Shown one piece after another: positions 19,034-31,831 of a stretch of 36,608 nucleotides of DNA. How positions within the stretch are numbered: the stretch's first letter is position 1; the number at the start of each line of letters is the position of its first letter. Both the position numbers and the translations under genes were made by a program. The notes beneath the pieces were generated by a model. That model did no database searches. It was given only the letters and a program-made list of their open reading frames with translations, and was not told the DNA's origin. The DNA is from Candidatus Staskawiczbacteria bacterium (lineage in GTDB: Bacteria; Patescibacteriota; Minisyncoccia; Minisyncoccales; Staskawiczbacteraceae). The stretch spans positions 1-36,608 of the forward strand of contig CAISIO010000023.1 of the NCBI GenBank assembly GCA_903885445.1. The letters are read 5' to 3'.

Positions 19034-20863
19034 TTAGTAGTCGAATTTGACACCTTCGGCGGCGCGCTCGGCCCTTTTTTGATCAACTTCTTTTAAATGC
19101 ATTTTTCTTATGCGGATAGTTTTTGGAGTTACTTCCACATATTCATCGTCGCCGATATATTCAAGCGCGTCGTCAAGCGCCATTGTTTTTGGAGTTCTAA
19201 AATAATCCAAGCTGGCGTCTCCAATAGACCTGCAGTTTGACAGCTGTTTTTCTTTGCAAACGTTAATCCTCACGTCTTGCGATCTGGCATTTTGTCCCAC
19301 AACCTGGCCCTCATAAATTTCCACTGCCGGGCCAAAAAATAAAGTTCCTCTGCTTTGCAAGTTTGTAAGCCCGTAGATATTAGTCTTGCCGTTGTCGGTG
19401 GAAACCAAAGAACCGTGGTCTCTTTCTTTCCAGTTTCCCGGATCGGGCATATATTGGAAAAATACGGTATTCATTATCCCAAGCCCTTTTGTGTCTGTCA
19501 AAAATTCATTTCTATATCCAAATAAGCCTCTGGTAGGAATAATAAATTCCATCAACATTATTGTGCCATTATTTTTCATATCTTTCATCTCCGCTTTTCT
19601 GCTTCCCATTTTTTCCATTACAACGCCCTGATATTTTTCCGGGACTTCAATAAATATTTTTTCGTATGGAGTCATCATTTTCCCATCAACCTCGCGGTTG
19701 ATAACCTGCGGCCTGGAAACCTGGAATTCAAAACCTTCTCTTCGAAGCCTTTCAATTAAAATTGCCAAATGCAATTCGCCCCTGCCTGAAACAACCCAGT
19801 TATTTTTATCATCTTCAACAACTCTCAAGGAAACATCGGTTTCCAATTCTTTAAATAATCTTTTCCTAATTTGCATTGTTGTGGAAAATTCTCCTTCTCT
19901 GCCTGCAAACGGGGAAGTGTTGACCATAAAAGTCATTTTGACAGTCGGCTCGTCTATATTTATCAACGGCAAAGCTATTGGATTTTCCGCGTCGGCAATT
20001 GTTTCACCAATTGTGACATCAGGAATTCCTGCAACCGCCACAATATCTCCGGCTCTTGATTCGGTTGTTTCAACTCTGCCCAATCCAAAAAAAGTCATTA
20101 GAGAAGTTATTCTGTATTTTTTTTGTTCGCCTTTTCTATTTATATGAGTTATTTCCTGCCCGGCTTTTATAATTCCATTGTAAATTCTGCCAATCGCAAT
20201 TCTGCCCTTAAAATCATCGGGGGCAATTGTGGTAACCAACATCTGCAAAGGCTTATCAACTTCTGCGATAGGGGATGGGATGTGTTTTACAATTGCGTCA
20301 AAAAGCGGATTGATATCTGTCATTTTAGACAAATCCGGGTCTAACCCCGCTTTTCCATCTCTGCCTGAAGCGTAAATTACAGGAAAATCCAGCGAGTGGT
20401 CGCCGGCTCCCAATTCCAAAAATAATTCGTAAGTTGCTTCCAAAGCAAATGCGCACCTTGCTCCGGGTTTATCTATTTTGTTTATAACCACAATAATTTT
20501 GTGGCCCATTTCCAAAGCCTTTTTTAAAACAAATCTGGTTTGTGGCATAGGGCCTTCTTTCGCATCAATCAAAAGCAAGCATCCGTCTGCCATATTTAAA
20601 ACCCTTTCAACTTCTCCGCCAAAATCTGCGTGGCCGGGCGTATCTATAATATTTATTTTTGTCTCGCCATATTGCACAGAAGCATTTTTAGAAAAAATGG
20701 TAATGCCTCTTTCCCTTTCCAATTCGTTTGAGTCCATTATCGCCTCCTGGCCAACAGTTTCTTTGCTTAGTTTTGTATGCGACTGCCTCAAAAGCGCGTC
20801 CACCAAAGTGGTTTTTCCATGGTCAACGTGAGCAATAATAGCAATGTTTCTGATGTTTTCCAT
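19034..20863 (-). CDS. typA: Translational GTPase TypA/BipA
   Basis: Ribosome-binding GTPase (609 aa) of the EF-G class involved in 50S assembly and stress or cold adaptation. G motifs: AHVDHGKTTLVDALL (10-24), RERGITIF, DTPGHADFGGEVERVL and NKIDKPGAR. Domains II, III and V follow, then the TypA-specific C-terminal domain (GPAVEIYEGQVVGQNAR, TPKTIRIRKMHL). Length is normal. TATAAT lies 22 bases upstream of the ATG on this strand, so here a short leader exists. Confidence 0.97.
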   Translation of the reverse strand: MENIRNIAIIAHVDHGKTTLVDALLRQSHTKLSKETVGQEAIMDSNELERERGITIFSKNASVQYGETKINIIDTPGHADFGGEVERVLNMADGCLLLIDAKEGPMPQTRFVLKKALEMGHKIIVVINKIDKPGARCAFALEATYELFLELGAGDHSLDFPVIYASGRDGKAGLDPDLSKMTDINPLFDAIVKHIPSPIAEVDKPLQMLVTTIAPDDFKGRIAIGRIYNGIIKAGQEITHINRKGEQKKYRITSLMTFFGLGRVETTESRAGDIVAVAGIPDVTIGETIADAENPIALPLINIDEPTVKMTFMVNTSPFAGREGEFSTTMQIRKRLFKELETDVSLRVVEDDKNNWVVSGRGELHLAILIERLRREGFEFQVSRPQVINREVDGKMMTPYEKIFIEVPEKYQGVVMEKMGSRKAEMKDMKNNGTIMLMEFIIPTRGLFGYRNEFLTDTKGLGIMNTVFFQYMPDPGNWKERDHGSLVSTDNGKTNIYGLTNLQSRGTLFFGPAVEIYEGQVVGQNARSQDVRINVCKEKQLSNCRSIGDASLDYFRTPKTMALDDALEYIGDDEYVEVTPKTIRIRKMHLKEVDQKRAERAAEGVKFDY

Positions 20864-20924
20864 TTGTTGTTCTATATAAAAGATAATTATACACTAAAAA
20901 ATGCCTAATGTAAAGGTTATGATC

Positions 20925-20961
20925 TAAAACAAAAAACTACCTCGCTTTCACGAAGTAGTTT
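20925..20961 (-). terminator. Terminator of the RRM gene
   Basis: On the minus strand AACTAC (20955-20960) pairs with GTAGTT (20935-20940), with inner CG-rich pairing, followed by TTTTGTTTT. It lies 17 bases after the RRM stop. Confidence 0.75.
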
Positions 20962-20977
20962 CTCTGTAATTAACGAA

Positions 20978-21304
20978 TTACCAGCGGTTGCCTCCTCCGA
21001 AGCCTCCTCTGTTTCCACCTCCGAATCCGCCTCCTCCTGTTCTAGGGGCTCTTGGTTCCATTGGTTTGGCTTCGTTTACTGTAAGAGTTCTTCCGTCTAA
21101 TTCTGTTCCATTGATTGTTTCAATGGCTTTCTTTGCCTCTTCTTCAGTTGCCATTTCCACAAATCCGAAACCTTTTGACCTGTTGGTCATTTTGTCTATG
21201 ATGATTGTGGCTGTTTCAACTGTTCCCGCGGCTGCGAAAGTGTCTCTTAAAGTGGCTTCTGTTGTGTTGTAGGATAATCCTCCAACGTATAATTTTTTTG
21301 CCAT
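20978..21304 (-). CDS. RRM-type RNA-binding protein with Gly-rich tail
   Basis: A 108-aa protein with one RNA recognition motif: RNP2 KLYVGGL (3-10) and RNP1 SKGFGFVEM (43-51). The tail is rich in Gly, Phe, Asn and Arg (GGGGFGGGNRGGFGGGNRW). The shape is that of bacterial and cyanobacterial Rbp-type, cold-inducible RNA-binding proteins. It probably binds single-stranded RNA. The leader holds an 8-bp hairpin (21330-21361) that could be an autoregulatory or thermosensing site. Confidence 0.93.
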   Translation of the reverse strand: MAKKLYVGGLSYNTTEATLRDTFAAAGTVETATIIIDKMTNRSKGFGFVEMATEEEAKKAIETINGTELDGRTLTVNEAKPMEPRAPRTGGGGFGGGNRGGFGGGNRW

Positions 21305-21329
21305 AGTATTTTTTCTTGATTAATAATAT

Positions 21330-21361
21330 GTAAGCCGACCTACGCTTCTTCTCCGGCTTAC
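21330..21361 (-). promoter_or_regulatory. Hairpin in the RRM gene leader
   Basis: GTAAGCCG (21330-21337) and CGGCTTAC (21354-21361) are exact complements around a 16-base loop. It stands alone in an A/U-rich leader of about 95 bases, 25 bases before the start codon. No T run follows on the minus strand, so it is not a terminator. Confidence 0.6.
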
Positions 21362-21404
21362 TTATTAGTAGAGACCAAGAAAGAAACTTAAAACTTACAA
21401 CTTC

Positions 21405-21432
21405 AGTATAGCACTATATTGCAGAAATGCAA
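21405..21432 (-). promoter_or_regulatory. Promoter of the RRM gene (extended -10)
   Basis: On the minus strand TTGCAT (21427-21432), a 16-base spacer and TATACT (21405-21410), preceded by TG one base upstream, form an extended -10. It gives a leader of about 95 bases. Confidence 0.55.
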
Positions 21433-21500
21433 CTGTTAATAAGCTTTTAATCAAATATTATATATAATTCAAACACCAACCCAAAACGTGCCTTGGAAAT

Positions 21501-22139
21501 ATGAACAGCCACGAAAAAAGTTTATTAAACGAGTTCGAAAAAAAATATCATCTCTACGAAGAATTCTGCGCGGCAATATATAAATTGCTGGGCAATTTGT
21601 TAAAGCAGAAAAACTACAAGCACCAGATATTTTACAGGGTGAAAAGCATGGCTAGATTGAAAGAAAAAATAATCCGTAAAGAAAAGGAAGGCAAGATTTA
21701 TAAGAAATTATCCAACATTGAAGATTTAGCGGGAATCAGGGTAATTTTTCCTTTGGAAAGCGATAAAAAGCGTTTTGTGAAAGATATTAAAAAGGAAATA
21801 AAAAGTCCCATTAGGCTTGAAAAGCATGAAAAATTGGTGGGATACCGGGCCGAGCATTTAATAGCCAAATTGGATGCGGAAAGATTAAAATTAAGCGAAT
21901 ATAAAAAGTTTAAAAATTTAAAGTGCGAAATACAGCTGACTTCTGTTCTTAACCACGCATGGGCTGAAATTGAGCACGACTGGCTATATAAAGATATTTA
22001 CGGGCTCAAAAGCAGGAAGCCGGAAAAATATGACATTATAAAGAGAAAAATGGAATATATTTTTACCAATTATGTAAAAGAAACCGGGATGGCGTTTGAG
22101 CAAATAGCAAAGCAAATTCGGCAATATATGGTTTCGTGA
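21501..22139 (+). CDS. Small alarmone synthetase (RelA/SpoT synthetase domain)
   Basis: A 212-aa protein made of the (p)ppGpp synthetase domain only, which transfers pyrophosphate from ATP to GDP or GTP. Motifs: YRVKSMARLKEKIIRK, IEDLAGIRVIFPLE, GYRAEHLIAKL and the catalytic EIQLTSVLNHAWAEIEHD. There is no hydrolase, TGS or ACT domain, so it resembles RelP/RelQ-type enzymes. TATAAT lies about 40 bases upstream of the ATG and gives a leadered mRNA. No hydrolase partner is seen in the window. Confidence 0.9.
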   Translation: MNSHEKSLLNEFEKKYHLYEEFCAAIYKLLGNLLKQKNYKHQIFYRVKSMARLKEKIIRKEKEGKIYKKLSNIEDLAGIRVIFPLESDKKRFVKDIKKEIKSPIRLEKHEKLVGYRAEHLIAKLDAERLKLSEYKKFKNLKCEIQLTSVLNHAWAEIEHDWLYKDIYGLKSRKPEKYDIIKRKMEYIFTNYVKETGMAFEQIAKQIRQYMVS

Positions 22140-26254: not shown

Positions 26255-26282
26255 TTGACAATTAAGAAAAAAAAGGTAGAAT
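26255..26282 (+). promoter_or_regulatory. Promoter of the PAS histidine kinase gene
   Basis: TTGACA (26255-26260), a 16-base spacer and TAGAAT (26277-26282). The -10 ends ten bases before the ATG at 26293, so the leader is only a few bases. Confidence 0.75.
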
Positions 26283-26292
26283 AAGTATTGCA

Positions 26293-27471
26293 ATGGCTTT
26301 AAACAAACAGAAAATAGAAACCGCGCTAAAAGAGCGTATTGTTGACAGCGCTCCAATGAGCATAATGACCATTGAAAAGAATGGCGTTATTACCTTTGTA
26401 AACAAATACTTTAGAAAATTTGCGAGCGCAAAACAGGGCGTGGGATCGAATATATTTCATAAGCCTTTTTTTATTAGGGAAAAATTGGTGCCTGAATACC
26501 AAAGGCTATTCGCAGAAGGGAAGCCCTTTATTAAGAGGAGTTGTAAAACTAGAACTCCGGCGGGCGAAATAAGATATCTCAAAATTTTAGCAGTGCCTCT
26601 TAAAAACGAAAAAGGCCAGGTTGAAGCGGCTCTCTCCATGGCGGTTGATGTGACCCAAACTGTCATGGCAAAGATTAAATTAAGAGAACTTAATGACAAC
26701 CTTGCGATTGAGGTTGCCAGAAAAACAGAAAAGTTAACCGAGCTAAACAAAAAATTAGAAAAATCTTTGGAGTTGAAAACGCAGTTTATCGCCGACGCGA
26801 CTCACGAATTGAGGACTCCTTTGGCGATTGCAAAGCTTAATCTGGAACTTTTCAAAAAAGAAATACCGGCGGATAAAAAAGAGTGTGCCAAGGATTTAGG
26901 CGCCATTGAAAACGAAATGAATAAAATCAGGGATATTCTGGCGGATTTGTCGGTTTTGACCGGAATTGATGAAGAAGCAGCAGGGAAAATAGTAAAGGGT
27001 AAAGTAGATTTAAGCAGGCTGGTTGAAAATGTTATTAAGCGGTTGAAAACCTTCGCCGATAAAAAAAATATTGGAATTACCTGGCAGAAAAATATAGAGG
27101 GTTTGATAATAGAAGGCGACGAAGGCCGGTTGGAAACAGTGCTTTCCAATATCATAAGAAACGCTTTAAAATACAGTGGGGAAAATGGGTGGGTGAAGGT
27201 TTGGCTTGAACCGGATCCCATAAAAAAAACAGTGAAAATAAACGTGGAAGACAACGGAATTGGAATACCAAAAAAAGATTTGCCATTTATCTTTGACCGT
27301 TTTTTCAGGACTGAATTATCCAGAAAAAGTGGTGAAGGAGGATTTGGTTTGGGATTGTCAATTTGCAAATGGATAATGGAACAGCATAACGGATTTATAG
27401 AAGTTAAAAGCACAGTGGGAAAGGGCTCGCTTTTTGCCATTAATTTACCAACGGAGCAGAGTCGCTCGTAG
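26293..27471 (+). CDS. PAS-domain sensor histidine kinase (soluble)
   Basis: Cytoplasmic sensor kinase (392 aa). A PAS domain at about 15-125 is followed by a coiled coil (about 130-165), the dimerisation and phosphoacceptor motif ATHELRTPLAI (His171) and an ATPase domain with the N-box (NIIRNALKYSG), VEDNGIGIP and GFGLGLSICKWIMEQ. No transmembrane segments are predicted, so it senses an internal signal. It lies just before the receiver-RlmN cassette. No response regulator of host composition is adjacent. Confidence 0.93.
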   Translation: MALNKQKIETALKERIVDSAPMSIMTIEKNGVITFVNKYFRKFASAKQGVGSNIFHKPFFIREKLVPEYQRLFAEGKPFIKRSCKTRTPAGEIRYLKILAVPLKNEKGQVEAALSMAVDVTQTVMAKIKLRELNDNLAIEVARKTEKLTELNKKLEKSLELKTQFIADATHELRTPLAIAKLNLELFKKEIPADKKECAKDLGAIENEMNKIRDILADLSVLTGIDEEAAGKIVKGKVDLSRLVENVIKRLKTFADKKNIGITWQKNIEGLIIEGDEGRLETVLSNIIRNALKYSGENGWVKVWLEPDPIKKTVKINVEDNGIGIPKKDLPFIFDRFFRTELSRKSGEGGFGLGLSICKWIMEQHNGFIEVKSTVGKGSLFAINLPTEQSRS

Positions 27472-27487
27472 AAGCGGCTTTTGTTTG
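27460..27487 (+). terminator. Terminator overlapping the end of the kinase gene
   Basis: AGTCGCT and AGCGGCT (27473-27479) pair around the loop that contains the stop codon, followed by TTTGTTT. One G-T pair; moderate strength. Confidence 0.6.
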
Positions 27488-27514: not shown

Positions 27515-27540
27515 CCCAGCCAGGGATAGGAGTTTGCGTC

Positions 27541-28902
27541 ATGGATACTCAGAAGAAGATCCGAGTTTTGGTTGTCGACGATCATCCGTCTGTTAGAGCT
27601 GGCGCTAAGTCTGCTATGGAGCTAGAGCCCGATTTCGAAGTCTCAACGGCAGGAAATTCGGTAGAAGCGCGTCGGCTTATGGCCGATCCGCTGGCTGAGC
27701 CGTTCGATTGCCTGGTGTCTGACGTGGACCTGAAAGAAGGCATTGTGACCGGTTTTGAGATTGCCAGATGGTTTGCGGAGTTTTTCCCTGCGACAGCGAG
27801 AGTGATATTCAGCGCTAACATTGCAGGGCAGTCGCCTCGAGACTTGGGATTCACGCCCGATGGCGTAGTCGATAAGTCAGTCGGCACGGGGGCACTGGTT
27901 CAGATCATACGCAATGCTGTTTGGCGTAAGAAAATGCCCCCGAAAGTCCGCAGGAAGCGGTTCGCAGCCATGCAATCGCTTCTGGAGTACAGCCCGCTCG
28001 TTGAGGTTATTGGCAGAACAGGCGACAATCAGGCGGAGAGAGTCGACGTTAGACTGGCAACCGATGGTTCGGCGACCGCCTTCGTCGTCTACTCCATACC
28101 CGAAAGCACTGAGGACAGAATTGTAGTCGCTCTTCCTCCGTGCGTCGGTTGCGTTGGCGGATGCGCTATGTGCAAGTCCGGATGCCACCATTTCGTACGG
28201 AATCTTACTCGCGAGGAAATGGCAGCCCTTGCATTATTGGGGCTGGAAACCCATCTCGCCCGCGAACTGTTTGAGCCGGGCGGCCAACGGAAAAAGGTCC
28301 GGTTCAGTTGGACCACTGAAGGCGACTCAGGCTGGTCTAACCTGAAGGCGGTCTGCCAGACCATCCAACTTCTCATGGAGCTGGAGGCAGCCGGTATCTC
28401 GTTGTCGGAATTTGTCATAACAACGATAGGCAACATAGAGCGCCTGCGTTGGTTCCTCAACAGCGAGTTTATCGACCTGCCCATCCGGATTTACTGGTCG
28501 TTGAATTCCATGGTGCAGGAAATCCGGGCCGGAATAATGCCGGTAGCCGGCACTCAGCCCATACCTGAAACGTGGGATGTGCTTCGGCAAATTGCTGTGA
28601 AAACTGGCCGTGAAGTCACAGCAAGCTACGTTCTCATAGACGGCCTTCCCCGTGGGAACAATTACCGCGACGAAGATGTGAGAATGTTGGGGAATCTCTT
28701 CGCTGGCCAGCCCGTACGCATCGGGCTCAAGCTTTTGGAAGAAGACTCTCCGGGCGGTTTCCACCGCCCCACTGACGAAGCCGCGGATGAGTTTGAGCGC
28801 AAACTGGTAGAGGTTGCCGGCTTGCGCGTGAAAAGGCAGTCGATAGTGGGGGGAGCTGTTAACGCCGGATGCGGCACAACAGCCTCTCGGCTGGATCTGT
28901 AG
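27541..28902 (+). CDS. Receiver domain fused to an RlmN-like radical SAM enzyme
   Basis: A 453-aa fusion. Residues 1-130 form a complete two-component receiver domain: acidic pair D13-D14, phosphoacceptor D61 in SDVDL, S91 and K112. Residues 145-453 resemble RlmN/Cfr rRNA methyltransferases: the iron-sulfur motif C204-x3-C208-x2-C211, then FVRNLTREEM (RNLT is an RlmN signature), TTEGDSGWSNLKAV for the GEP region, ITTIGNIERL, WSLNSMVQEIRAGIMPV, and the C-terminal NAGCGTTAS with C444 at the place of the methyl-carrier cysteine. The second catalytic Cys (C118 of E. coli RlmN) is not at its expected place (Ala197); C201 is close. AGGAG lies eight bases before ATG 27541. The gene is GC-rich (34 of 60 bases at 28441-28500) and lies between host genes. 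Confidence 0.82.
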   Translation: MDTQKKIRVLVVDDHPSVRAGAKSAMELEPDFEVSTAGNSVEARRLMADPLAEPFDCLVSDVDLKEGIVTGFEIARWFAEFFPATARVIFSANIAGQSPRDLGFTPDGVVDKSVGTGALVQIIRNAVWRKKMPPKVRRKRFAAMQSLLEYSPLVEVIGRTGDNQAERVDVRLATDGSATAFVVYSIPESTEDRIVVALPPCVGCVGGCAMCKSGCHHFVRNLTREEMAALALLGLETHLARELFEPGGQRKKVRFSWTTEGDSGWSNLKAVCQTIQLLMELEAAGISLSEFVITTIGNIERLRWFLNSEFIDLPIRIYWSLNSMVQEIRAGIMPVAGTQPIPETWDVLRQIAVKTGREVTASYVLIDGLPRGNNYRDEDVRMLGNLFAGQPVRIGLKLLEEDSPGGFHRPTDEAADEFERKLVEVAGLRVKRQSIVGGAVNAGCGTTASRLDL

Positions 28903-28912
28903 CCCAGTACAA

Positions 28913-28960
28913 GCGAGATAGCATTTTGCCCAAGGCGAATGTTATCTCGCGTTTTTTTTG
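28913..28960 (+). terminator. Strong terminator of the receiver-RlmN gene
   Basis: GCGAGATAGCATT (28913-28925) and AATGTTATCTCGC (28938-28950) pair with one G-T pair, with an inner GCC/GGC pairing; eight T follow a G. It closes the GC-rich segment 11 bases after the stop. Confidence 0.93.
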
Positions 28961-29076: not shown

Positions 29077-29346
29077 ATGGATCAAGCACTTCAATATGCA
29101 GCAATAATATCTGAGATTATTGCCAAACAAGCGATAATTTTGGGGCCGGACATCGCAATCTTAAAAGCTCGCAATGTTTCTGGCTTGGTTGTAGACGACC
29201 AGGGCAAGGTTACGGAAATTAAGGGCGAACCTGCAATGGCGCTTCAAAAATTAATCAACGAATATGTGGAATTGTCAGGAATGATTGTCAAAAATACATT
29301 AGGTTCTATTTTTGACAAATATCCGGATATTAAAAAAGTAGATTAA
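29077..29346 (+). CDS. Small soluble protein of unknown function in a signalling operon
   Basis: An 89-aa protein (MDQALQYAAIISEIIAKQAI at the start, then VVDDQGKVTEIKG and a helix ALQKLINEYVELSGMIVKNT). It looks like a short alpha/beta domain. No family is recognised. It is four bases before a membrane protein and in the same operon as a GAF/PAS kinase and a receiver protein, so a regulatory or small sensor role is plausible but not shown. Confidence 0.62.
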   Translation: MDQALQYAAIISEIIAKQAIILGPDIAILKARNVSGLVVDDQGKVTEIKGEPAMALQKLINEYVELSGMIVKNTLGSIFDKYPDIKKVD

Positions 29347-29350
29347 AAAT

Positions 29351-29680
29351 ATGGCTTACTTAATTATGATTCGAAATTTAATTTTAGGCATCGGCTGGCC
29401 GGTGTTAATCGCGGGCAGTATTATTCTTTTTATCAAAGGCAGAAGCGTTTACAGCATGGTGAAAACGGCCCTGGTTGGAAAAATCACCAAGACTCTGGTT
29501 TTCACTATGTTGATAGAAATGTACAGCTTGGGAATTGTTTGCACCGCTTATATGTTAGCAGACCCCAACAGCACATATTTGGTATTTTTTGTTTTCTTAA
29601 CTTGGTTTGTGGTTTTCGTATCTTCGCTGAGGGTTTTGATGAAAGCAGAGGCTGAAGTAAGAAAAATGATGCAAAAGTAA
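29351..29680 (+). CDS. Small membrane protein in the signalling operon
   Basis: A 109-aa protein with three or four hydrophobic segments (about 5-27, 48-66, 75-95) and a charged C-terminus (LMKAEAEVRKMMQK). Family unknown. It lies five bases before the kinase gene and may supply a membrane-sensing part. The call rests on hydrophobicity and operon position. Confidence 0.62.
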   Translation: MAYLIMIRNLILGIGWPVLIAGSIILFIKGRSVYSMVKTALVGKITKTLVFTMLIEMYSLGIVCTAYMLADPNSTYLVFFVFLTWFVVFVSSLRVLMKAEAEVRKMMQK

Positions 29681-29685
29681 AATAG

Positions 29686-31425
29686 ATGCCTGACATTTTT
29701 GTCACGTTGGCTGCAGTTATCGCGTCTATTACAATAGTCGGGTGTTTTTGCTATTGGAAAACCAGCAATTTGAAAAAAGACGTGCAGAAGAACGAGGAAA
29801 AAATGAAACGCTCCATGTATGAGTTGGCAATTTTAAAAGAGTTGGGCGAAAGAACGGGATATTCTTTAAATGTGCAAAATATCATAGACATCATAACCGG
29901 GTCTCTGCGCCAGTTTATTGATTACAGTGTTACCTCGTATATGTTCATTGAACCTGAAAAGATTATTTTTAAGATTCACGTGGAAAAATCGGTATCGCGG
30001 GAGTTTATCAATGATATTAAAAATCGGATGATGAATTCCTTGTCCGCGCTTTTAAACAAAGATTTTAGTGTGACTCATATAGAAGAAATTTTATCAGGCG
30101 CGCTTTTGGTGGAAGACATTAAAGAGCCGGTGAGGTCATTTTTTAACATTCCTTTGGTTATTTCGGGAAGAGTTGTGGGAGTTTTGACAATTGCAGATAC
30201 CAAAGTCGGGCTTTACCGCGAAGAGGAAATGTCCATTCTGTATAAAATAACAAAGCAGGCATCAAGCGCGGTCAGCTCATTGCAGGAAGTCGTCAGCACA
30301 GAACAACGCAAACTGAACGCAATGATGGAATCAATAAGCGAAGGAGTTGTGATGACCGACAAGGATTATAAAATTATGGTGGCAAATCCGGCGGCCAAAA
30401 ACGCTGTTGGCATAGAATCAAAAGACGATATATCTATTTTTGATTTCGTGGAGAAACTTGGAGGAAAATTTGATATCAAAGGAAAACTTGAAGAAAGCGT
30501 TAAATTGGACAAGTCTTTAAGCGTTGATGACGTTGTAATTAACGAACGCTTTTTTCAAATTGTTGTTTCTCCGGTGAAATCCAGTTTTGGAATCACAAAA
30601 AATGAAATATTGGGCGCGGTTGTTATTTTCCACGACATCACTCCAATGAAAGAAGTGGAAACAATGCGCCAGGACTTTACGTCAATGATGGTGCACGAAT
30701 TGCGTTCGCCTTTGGATAATATTAAAAAAATATCGGAAGTGCTTTTAAAAAAGAAAGCCTCAAAATCAGATTCTGAATATTTGGGTTTTGTTTTTCAGGA
30801 TTCTTCACAAATGCTTGAGCTGGTAAACGACTTGCTGGACGTTGCTAAATTAGAAGCAGGAAAATTTGAAGTTTATAAGCAGCCGTCGGATGTCGCGCAA
30901 ATCATAAAAGAAAGGGCTAATTTTTTCAAAACATCGGCTAAGTTTGCAAAAGTAAAAATTGAAACCGTTTTTGACAAAAATATTCCGGAAAAAACAAATT
31001 TTGACCCAAATAGAATTGTGCAGGTTTTAAACAACCTTATTTCCAACGCCATAAAATTTACCCATAAAGAGGGAACTGTGACAATCCAAGCATTGCTTCA
31101 CAAAGCCGGCCAGGATATAAATAAAGAAGCCGAAGTAGCCGGAATAAAATGGTTTTTAAATAAAAATTCGCAAAGCTTTGGCGTTCTCGGCGATTCTTTG
31201 GTTGTGGCGGTGACAGACACCGGCATCGGGCTTTCTGAAGATAAAATCAGCCAGCTTTTCAGCAAATTCAAACAATTTAGGGCGGCAATGAGCGAGGGCG
31301 AAAAGAAGGGAACCGGTTTGGGGCTGGTTGTTGTAAAAGGAATTGTTGACGCTCACAAGGGGATGGTCGGGGTTGCCTCGGAGGAAAATACCGGAAGCAG
31401 TTTTTATTTTGCCTTGCCTATTTAA
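29686..31425 (+). CDS. GAF/PAS sensor histidine kinase, membrane-anchored
   Basis: A 579-aa sensor kinase. One N-terminal membrane helix (about 5-25) is followed by a coiled coil, a GAF domain (about 45-200), a PAS domain (about 205-325), the phosphoacceptor MMVHELRSPLDN (His337) and an ATPase domain (NLISNAIKFTH, VTDTGIGLS, GTGLGLVVVKGI). It can phosphorylate the receiver encoded 37 bases downstream. It may sense a small molecule or redox state through GAF; the signal cannot be told from the sequence. Confidence 0.94.
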   Translation: MPDIFVTLAAVIASITIVGCFCYWKTSNLKKDVQKNEEKMKRSMYELAILKELGERTGYSLNVQNIIDIITGSLRQFIDYSVTSYMFIEPEKIIFKIHVEKSVSREFINDIKNRMMNSLSALLNKDFSVTHIEEILSGALLVEDIKEPVRSFFNIPLVISGRVVGVLTIADTKVGLYREEEMSILYKITKQASSAVSSLQEVVSTEQRKLNAMMESISEGVVMTDKDYKIMVANPAAKNAVGIESKDDISIFDFVEKLGGKFDIKGKLEESVKLDKSLSVDDVVINERFFQIVVSPVKSSFGITKNEILGAVVIFHDITPMKEVETMRQDFTSMMVHELRSPLDNIKKISEVLLKKKASKSDSEYLGFVFQDSSQMLELVNDLLDVAKLEAGKFEVYKQPSDVAQIIKERANFFKTSAKFAKVKIETVFDKNIPEKTNFDPNRIVQVLNNLISNAIKFTHKEGTVTIQALLHKAGQDINKEAEVAGIKWFLNKNSQSFGVLGDSLVVAVTDTGIGLSEDKISQLFSKFKQFRAAMSEGEKKGTGLGLVVVKGIVDAHKGMVGVASEENTGSSFYFALPI

Positions 31426-31462
31426 TTATAAGTGCGATAATAAGTAAATAATAAACAAATCT

Positions 31463-31831
31463 ATGCAAAAAAAAGTATTAGTCGTTGAGGACGATTCAAA
31501 AATGAGGCGGGTCTTGGTTGACGAGCTCAAAAAAAATAATTTTGTGGTCATTGAGGCGGAGAACGGCCAGGAGGGGCTGGAAACTGCTTTAAAAGATCAA
31601 CCGGATTTAATTTTGTTGGACATTACAATGCCCGTTATGGACGGTTTGACCATGTTGAATAAGTTAAGAGAGGAAGAGGGCGGCAAAAAAGTGCAGGTTA
31701 TTGTTTTGACTAATTCTGGCGACCTGGGAAAAATAGCCGAAGCAGTTGAGAGGGGAATTTGCAGCTATTTGGTAAAGTCTGATATCACGACAGAAGACTT
31801 GGTGGGAAGAGTCAAAAAGTTTTTAGAATAA
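31463..31831 (+). CDS. CheY-like single-domain response regulator
   Basis: A 122-aa receiver domain without an output domain. Acidic pocket VVEDDSKMRR, phospho-Asp in LILLDITMPVMDG, LTNS and the conserved Lys in SYLVKSDI are all present. As the last gene after the GAF/PAS kinase it is the likely phosphate acceptor. Having no DNA-binding part, it must act by protein contact or as a phosphorelay. Confidence 0.92.
   Translation: MQKKVLVVEDDSKMRRVLVDELKKNNFVVIEAENGQEGLETALKDQPDLILLDITMPVMDGLTMLNKLREEEGGKKVQVIVLTNSGDLGKIAEAVERGICSYLVKSDITTEDLVGRVKKFLE

Follow-up and report, generated by a model that had tools for sequence, protein, structure and literature searches.

The usual targets of two-component control are transcription and second messengers. 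Response regulators that have an enzyme as their output are nevertheless established, among them the CheB methylesterase and c-di-GMP enzymes and, like the locus described here, they combine a receiver with an enzyme and have a kinase next door. A possible RNA-directed output under two-component control is also what likens this locus to the ANTAR response regulators (AmiR, NasR, EutV and PdtaR), and PdtaS, like the kinase at this locus, is a cytosolic kinase (PMC12471899). The ANTAR output is, however, a small helical domain that binds RNA and has neither a cluster nor catalytic activity. The closest described enzymes are RlmN, the dual-specificity 23S rRNA/tRNA m2A methyltransferase (TIGR00048; E. 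coli rlmN b2517; PDB 3rf9, 5hr6 and 6fz6), and Cfr, the 23S rRNA A2503 C8 methyltransferase (TIGR04432; PDB 9p0p).

We analyzed a 36,608-nucleotide stretch of a Candidatus Staskawiczbacteria bacterium genome (hereafter the window), which encodes a response regulator with an RlmN-like radical-SAM output. The protein shares with RlmN a radical-SAM core of ~255 residues, the cluster cysteines, the framework residues G179, G214, S233, R242 and N286, and the C-terminal methyl-carrier cysteine. It differs in carrying a receiver instead of the N-terminal helical domain, in several catalytic positions, and in scoring far below the family cut-off. Cfr has the same superfamily core and cluster motif, but the match to it is weaker than to RlmN, and the receiver domain and the same catalytic losses again distinguish the window protein. 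A full-text search of the open-access literature returned no report in which a receiver is fused to RlmN or to a radical-SAM enzyme acting on RNA, and neither of the two surveys of two-component systems consulted mentions a radical-SAM or RlmN-like output. The combination is thus apparently undescribed in the open-access literature, although it may be listed in a protein-architecture database.

The regulator gene (27541..28902, + strand) is an unbroken open reading frame that begins with ATG and encodes 453 amino acids; an alternative in-frame TTG at 27481 would lengthen the product by 20 residues. From the N-terminus, the protein consists of a receiver, a short linker, the beta-strands found ahead of the barrel in RlmN, the barrel itself and the C-terminal cysteine. 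A Shine-Dalgarno-like GGATAGGAG lies ahead of the ATG (27524..27532, +), and the gene is followed by an intrinsic terminator (28912..28958, +), a long hairpin and then T8, with a folding energy of -24.2 kcal/mol (z = -6.4). The GC content of the gene is 56% (GC3 61%), whereas the surrounding region and neighbors are at ~39-40%. The description in an earlier note of a GC-rich gene with its own Shine-Dalgarno sequence and terminator is therefore accurate. We searched the rest of the genome for the leader and terminator DNA as a cassette signature and found no convincing second copy. In all five genomes measured (window, L022, L060, L080 and L081) the regulator has a higher GC content than its own kinase, with regulator/kinase pairs of 0.56/0.39, 0.45/0.33, 0.43/0.35, 0.47/0.38 and 0.47/0.42. 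In one relative, G293, two neighboring genes close to this locus (L059:3717-5326, -) are also unusually GC-rich, at 0.52 and 0.46, and one of them has a GC3 of 0.61; our guess from their sequences is that they encode pyrimidine-synthesis enzymes.

Whole-genome searches of about 1,030 different genomes retrieved six further full-length homologues, and identity among all seven is 20-42%. One is in the same genus (G293), two are in the same order (G905 and G821) and three are in another order of the class (G504, G963 and G968). Both orders were searched whole, and the regulator occurs in 4 of the 247 genomes of the window's order and in 3 of the 131 genomes of the other. No further homologue was found in a sample of 380 genomes from the phylum. 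The window genome is 0.80 Mb and its relatives are 0.4-1.6 Mb. The other matches listed cover mainly the C-terminal part and nearly all are frames of ~290-400 amino acids, like ordinary RlmN. Plasmids and phages likewise yielded only ordinary RlmN/Cfr matches over the C-terminal part, and viral contigs gave no match to the protein or to a two-row alignment. A contig scan with peptide patterns and leader DNA, which sees only near-identical peptides, also gave no match.

The earlier note had proposed that a receiver and an RlmN-like radical-SAM core are joined in one protein. This is borne out by matches to Pfam, NCBIfam and solved structures and by the seven homologues, whose common architecture indicates that the fusion did not arise by chance. 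The GC content of the gene (56% in a genome of ~40%) and its fast divergence would fit a recently acquired, decaying or chimeric gene without function. We consider this exceedingly improbable, because the frame is open in seven genomes with a shared architecture, a conserved cluster and a conserved kinase partner, and because the gene has its own Shine-Dalgarno sequence and terminator.

The receiver domain occupies residues 9-123 (27565..27909, +) and matches Pfam Response_reg (PF00072) with an E-value of 8e-10, exceeding the gathering score. The receiver is complete, as the earlier note had stated: the acidic pair D13/D14, D61, S91 and K112 are all present. Among the homologues, the phospho-acceptor aspartate (D61) is found in six of seven, the lysine (K112) in all seven and the full acidic pocket in five, including the window protein. 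The receiver of G504 lacks both the acidic pair and the phospho-acceptor aspartate, and that of G968 lacks the acidic pair. For the window protein, phosphorylation of the fused receiver is thus plausible, but it is not universal across the family, since the degenerate receivers in two of the seven homologues indicate that it is not obligatory for every member. Both loci with a degenerate fused receiver have another receiver close by. In G504 this is an OmpR-type regulator beside the kinase (L064:688-1353, +), and in G968 the orthologous kinase has an additional N-terminal receiver (L117:333-1940, +).

We assigned the C-terminal part of the protein by comparing sequences, profiles and structures. 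Profile comparison with RlmN places the radical-SAM core at about residues 175-446 (28063..28878, +). Residues ~190-450 match the NCBIfam models PRK14470 (3e-20) and TIGR00048 (5e-18), and the Cfr models follow at ~1e-11. Although RlmN-type models rank best, the scores are 65-73 bits against equivalog cut-offs of 290-441 bits; for TIGR00048, the core scores 65 bits and misses the curated cut-off of 290 bits. The core also matches solved RlmN/Cfr chains (6fz6, 1e-16). An hhalign comparison of the first five homologues with twelve canonical RlmNs gave a probability of 99.9 over 254 columns. In a profile search against solved structures, RlmN and Cfr ranked first (1.9e-28 to 7.5e-25); the remainder of the 60 best matches, none of them another radical-SAM chain, fell on the receiver part. 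Only the G504 homologue has a Pfam Radical_SAM match, and a single-sequence AlphaFold model of the window protein was unusable (mean pLDDT 40). The profile alignment begins at about E. coli residue 100, so that the N-terminal helical domain of RlmN is absent and the receiver stands in its place. We checked whether the C-terminal part belongs to another radical-SAM family and found RlmN/Cfr to be the best match throughout; the hhalign result and the structure profile search argue that the core descends from the RlmN/Cfr group and not from another radical-SAM family. In a tree, the seven homologues form one clade apart from 50 canonical RlmN rows. The clade is well marked (SH-aLRT 100), but branches are very long and the tree gives no root within the superfamily. 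The window genome also encodes a canonical RlmN, a protein of ~340 amino acids that retains C118, E105 and C355. We ruled out that the regulator substitutes for a missing rlmN in the window genome, G293, G504 and G968, all of which have a canonical copy; in G905, G821 and G963 there was no second RlmN copy above the search threshold.

We next compared the catalytic residues in a core alignment of the seven homologues and 50 rows of canonical RlmN. These rows come from E. coli, whose sequence appears twice, and from the genomes studied here (RlmN positions are given in E. coli numbering). All seven homologues keep the cluster cysteines C125, C129 and C132, as well as G124, E147, G179, G214, S233, R242, N286, L334 and G356. 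The methyl-carrier C355 is present in six of the seven and missing in G821. In the window protein the [4Fe-4S] motif is C204-x3-C208-x2-C211 (28150-28173, +) and the equivalent of C355 is C444 (28870-28872, +); the cluster motif and C-terminal cysteine reported previously are thus real. The RNLT signature reported with them is present in the window protein but is not conserved among the homologues. The retention of the cluster cysteines in all seven proteins, of C355 in six, and of the core residues G124, E147, G179, G214, S233, R242 and N286 in all argues for a working radical-SAM site.

Other positions have changed. E105, M176, G177, M178 and E278, all invariant in the canonical set, are found in none of the seven homologues. 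E105 and M176, kept in 50 out of 50 canonical rows, are replaced in the window protein by A180 and T258, and the GMGEP motif of RlmN is replaced by TEGD. S211 is a threonine in six of the seven. C118 is lost in five homologues, being alanine in the window protein (A197), glycine in three and tyrosine in one. The earlier note had suggested that this cysteine was either shifted to C201 or lost. Loss is correct, and the shift can be discarded because C201 aligns with Q122, a column in which no other homologue has a cysteine. The two homologues that keep C118, G293 and G821, are precisely those in which the cluster motif is shorter, with CX2CX2C in place of CX3CX2C. This shortened motif, together with the missing C355 in G821, indicates that the chemistry may not be uniform across the family.

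The roles of these residues are documented for RlmN. E105 deprotonates C355, M176 stabilizes the radical, and C118 resolves the protein-RNA adduct or serves as a base; a C118A variant traps a covalent RNA adduct (PMC9692996). In E. coli RlmN, C118A abolishes m2A formation (PMC5130265). Given these roles and the C118A result, the loss of E105, M176 and C118 makes standard RlmN chemistry unlikely. The absence of E105, M176, G177 and M178 from all seven proteins and the presence of C118 in only two argue for a changed chemistry, in agreement with the earlier suggestion that the chemistry may differ. The stronger claim, that the protein is an RlmN-type methyltransferase of rRNA or tRNA, was not supported. 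RlmN is the closest family and the equivalent of C355 is in place, which would fit a true RlmN (or Cfr) in which the receiver turns m2A (or m8A) methylation of rRNA or tRNA on and off. We nonetheless regard this as very unlikely: none of the seven homologues has E105 or M176, five of them, the window protein among these, lack C118, the scores are far under the equivalog cut-offs, the N-terminal domain is absent and the genome carries a canonical rlmN as well.

The same losses could instead reflect an output that is catalytically silent or sensory, with the core as a binding site for RNA, SAM or an iron-sulfur cluster and an RNA-binding or redox-reading function like that of ANTAR regulators. 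RNA-binding outputs are known among response regulators (PMC12471899), and several RlmN catalytic residues are gone, with C118 absent from five of the seven homologues and C355 from one. We judge such an output unlikely, because the cluster cysteines persist in all seven proteins at 20-42% identity and C355 in six, although they would be needless for pure RNA binding. An RlmN-derived site that is still active but carries out a changed reaction is the reading we carry forward.

The probable partner of the regulator is encoded directly upstream on the same strand, with a gap of 69 bases. This gene (26293..27471, +) encodes a soluble histidine kinase of 392 amino acids with PAS, HisKA and HATPase domains (Pfam PAS_4, HisKA and HATPase_c), which keeps the HELRTPL phosphohistidine box and the ATPase domain and is presumably the cognate sensor. 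A consensus scan identified a promoter-like site ahead of the kinase (TTGACA-16-TAGAAT, 11/12; 26255..26282, +). The end of the kinase gene is overlapped by a weak hairpin that carries a short U tract (27460..27483, +), and a similar one lies at the equivalent place in G293. This hairpin could act as a terminator between kinase and regulator; its folding energy is unexceptional (z about -1.1 and -1.7 in the two genomes, not significant), and we therefore did not count it as evidence that the two genes are transcribed separately.

An orthologous PAS kinase is directly upstream of the regulator in six of the seven loci. The window kinase has 54% identity with that of G293, and the same-strand upstream kinases of the window, G293, G905, G821 and G504 share 39-53% identity over the alignment. 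At these five loci the regulators share 24-41% identity and are thus less conserved than the kinases, the opposite of what would be expected. Taken over all seven loci, conservation is highest in the PAS domain. Among the 247 genomes of the window's order, the kinase was detected at E ≤ 1e-85 in five, namely the four that have the regulator and G291. The probability of this overlap under random placement is ~3e-8, a value that serves only as a guide because the genomes are related. In G291, the slot behind the orthologous kinase is occupied by an unrelated gene for a protein of 177 amino acids (L058:4505-5038, -) without a Pfam match, whose start, IYLVTHGKD, recalls histidine phosphatases, to which it may be related. 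The exception among the seven loci is G963, where the neighbor (L102:3315-4268, +) is transcribed away from the regulator and joins the same PAS domain, at 40-54% identity to the others, to a GGDEF domain and not to a kinase. By its sequence, G963 appears to have kept the sensor and exchanged the sensor's own output.

Two-component control of the fusion is plausible, and the conserved kinase partner strengthens the case for it. An alternative is that the receiver needs no phosphorylation and serves as a docking site for the PAS partner or some other regulator, and that the enzyme is controlled by binding. Consistent with this, the gene pair persists in G504 and G968 although phosphorylation residues are lost and another receiver is close by in both, and the PAS partner in G963 is a GGDEF protein and not a kinase. 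Docking of this kind nevertheless seems quite improbable to us, because the full pocket is kept in five of the seven receivers and the aspartate in six, and the paired kinases keep their HisKA and ATPase domains.

The window contains a second two-component set directly after the regulator gene (29077-31831), comprising two small uncharacterized proteins, a GAF/PAS kinase (29686-31425) and a single-domain receiver (31463-31831). Translation and stringent-response genes are also found near the regulator locus (19034-22139), namely one for a TypA/BipA GTPase and, on the opposite strand, one for a small RelA/SpoT-domain protein (21501-22139).

On balance we lean towards a dedicated two-component system in which the PAS kinase phosphorylates D61 and a radical-SAM core derived from RlmN, with a changed reaction, is gated by the receiver. 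The soluble kinase would sense a cytoplasmic signal and pass a phosphoryl group to the receiver. The receiver, in the place of the N-terminal helical domain of RlmN, would then open or close the radical-SAM site. The core has most likely retained the binding of a [4Fe-4S] cluster and SAM and the use of C444, and without E105, M176 and C118 it would most likely carry out a changed radical reaction and not standard m2A synthesis. Because the proton-transfer residues differ, the product is probably not m2A. RNA is favored as the substrate by descent only, and it could be something else. The sequences themselves show the architecture, the intact cluster motif, the linkage to the kinase, the single clade and the altered active site; the phosphotransfer, the gating, the radical chemistry and the substrate are inferred. 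More tentatively, and on balance doubtfully, the output could be a radical modification of RNA that is under control of the signal and is made by a diverged RlmN core without the resolving cysteine. The product might then be a new modification or, as in the C118A variant of RlmN, a long-lived covalent protein-RNA adduct that would switch translation in these tiny-genome bacteria.

The conserved pairing of a kinase with an altered-RlmN regulator suggests an undescribed coupling of a signal to radical chemistry. If this is true, an RlmN-derived enzyme would directly link sensing with RNA modification or with some other radical reaction. Because its members keep the cluster and the methyl-carrier cysteine but have lost E105, M176 and mostly C118, the family would also offer a natural experiment on which residues RlmN can do without.
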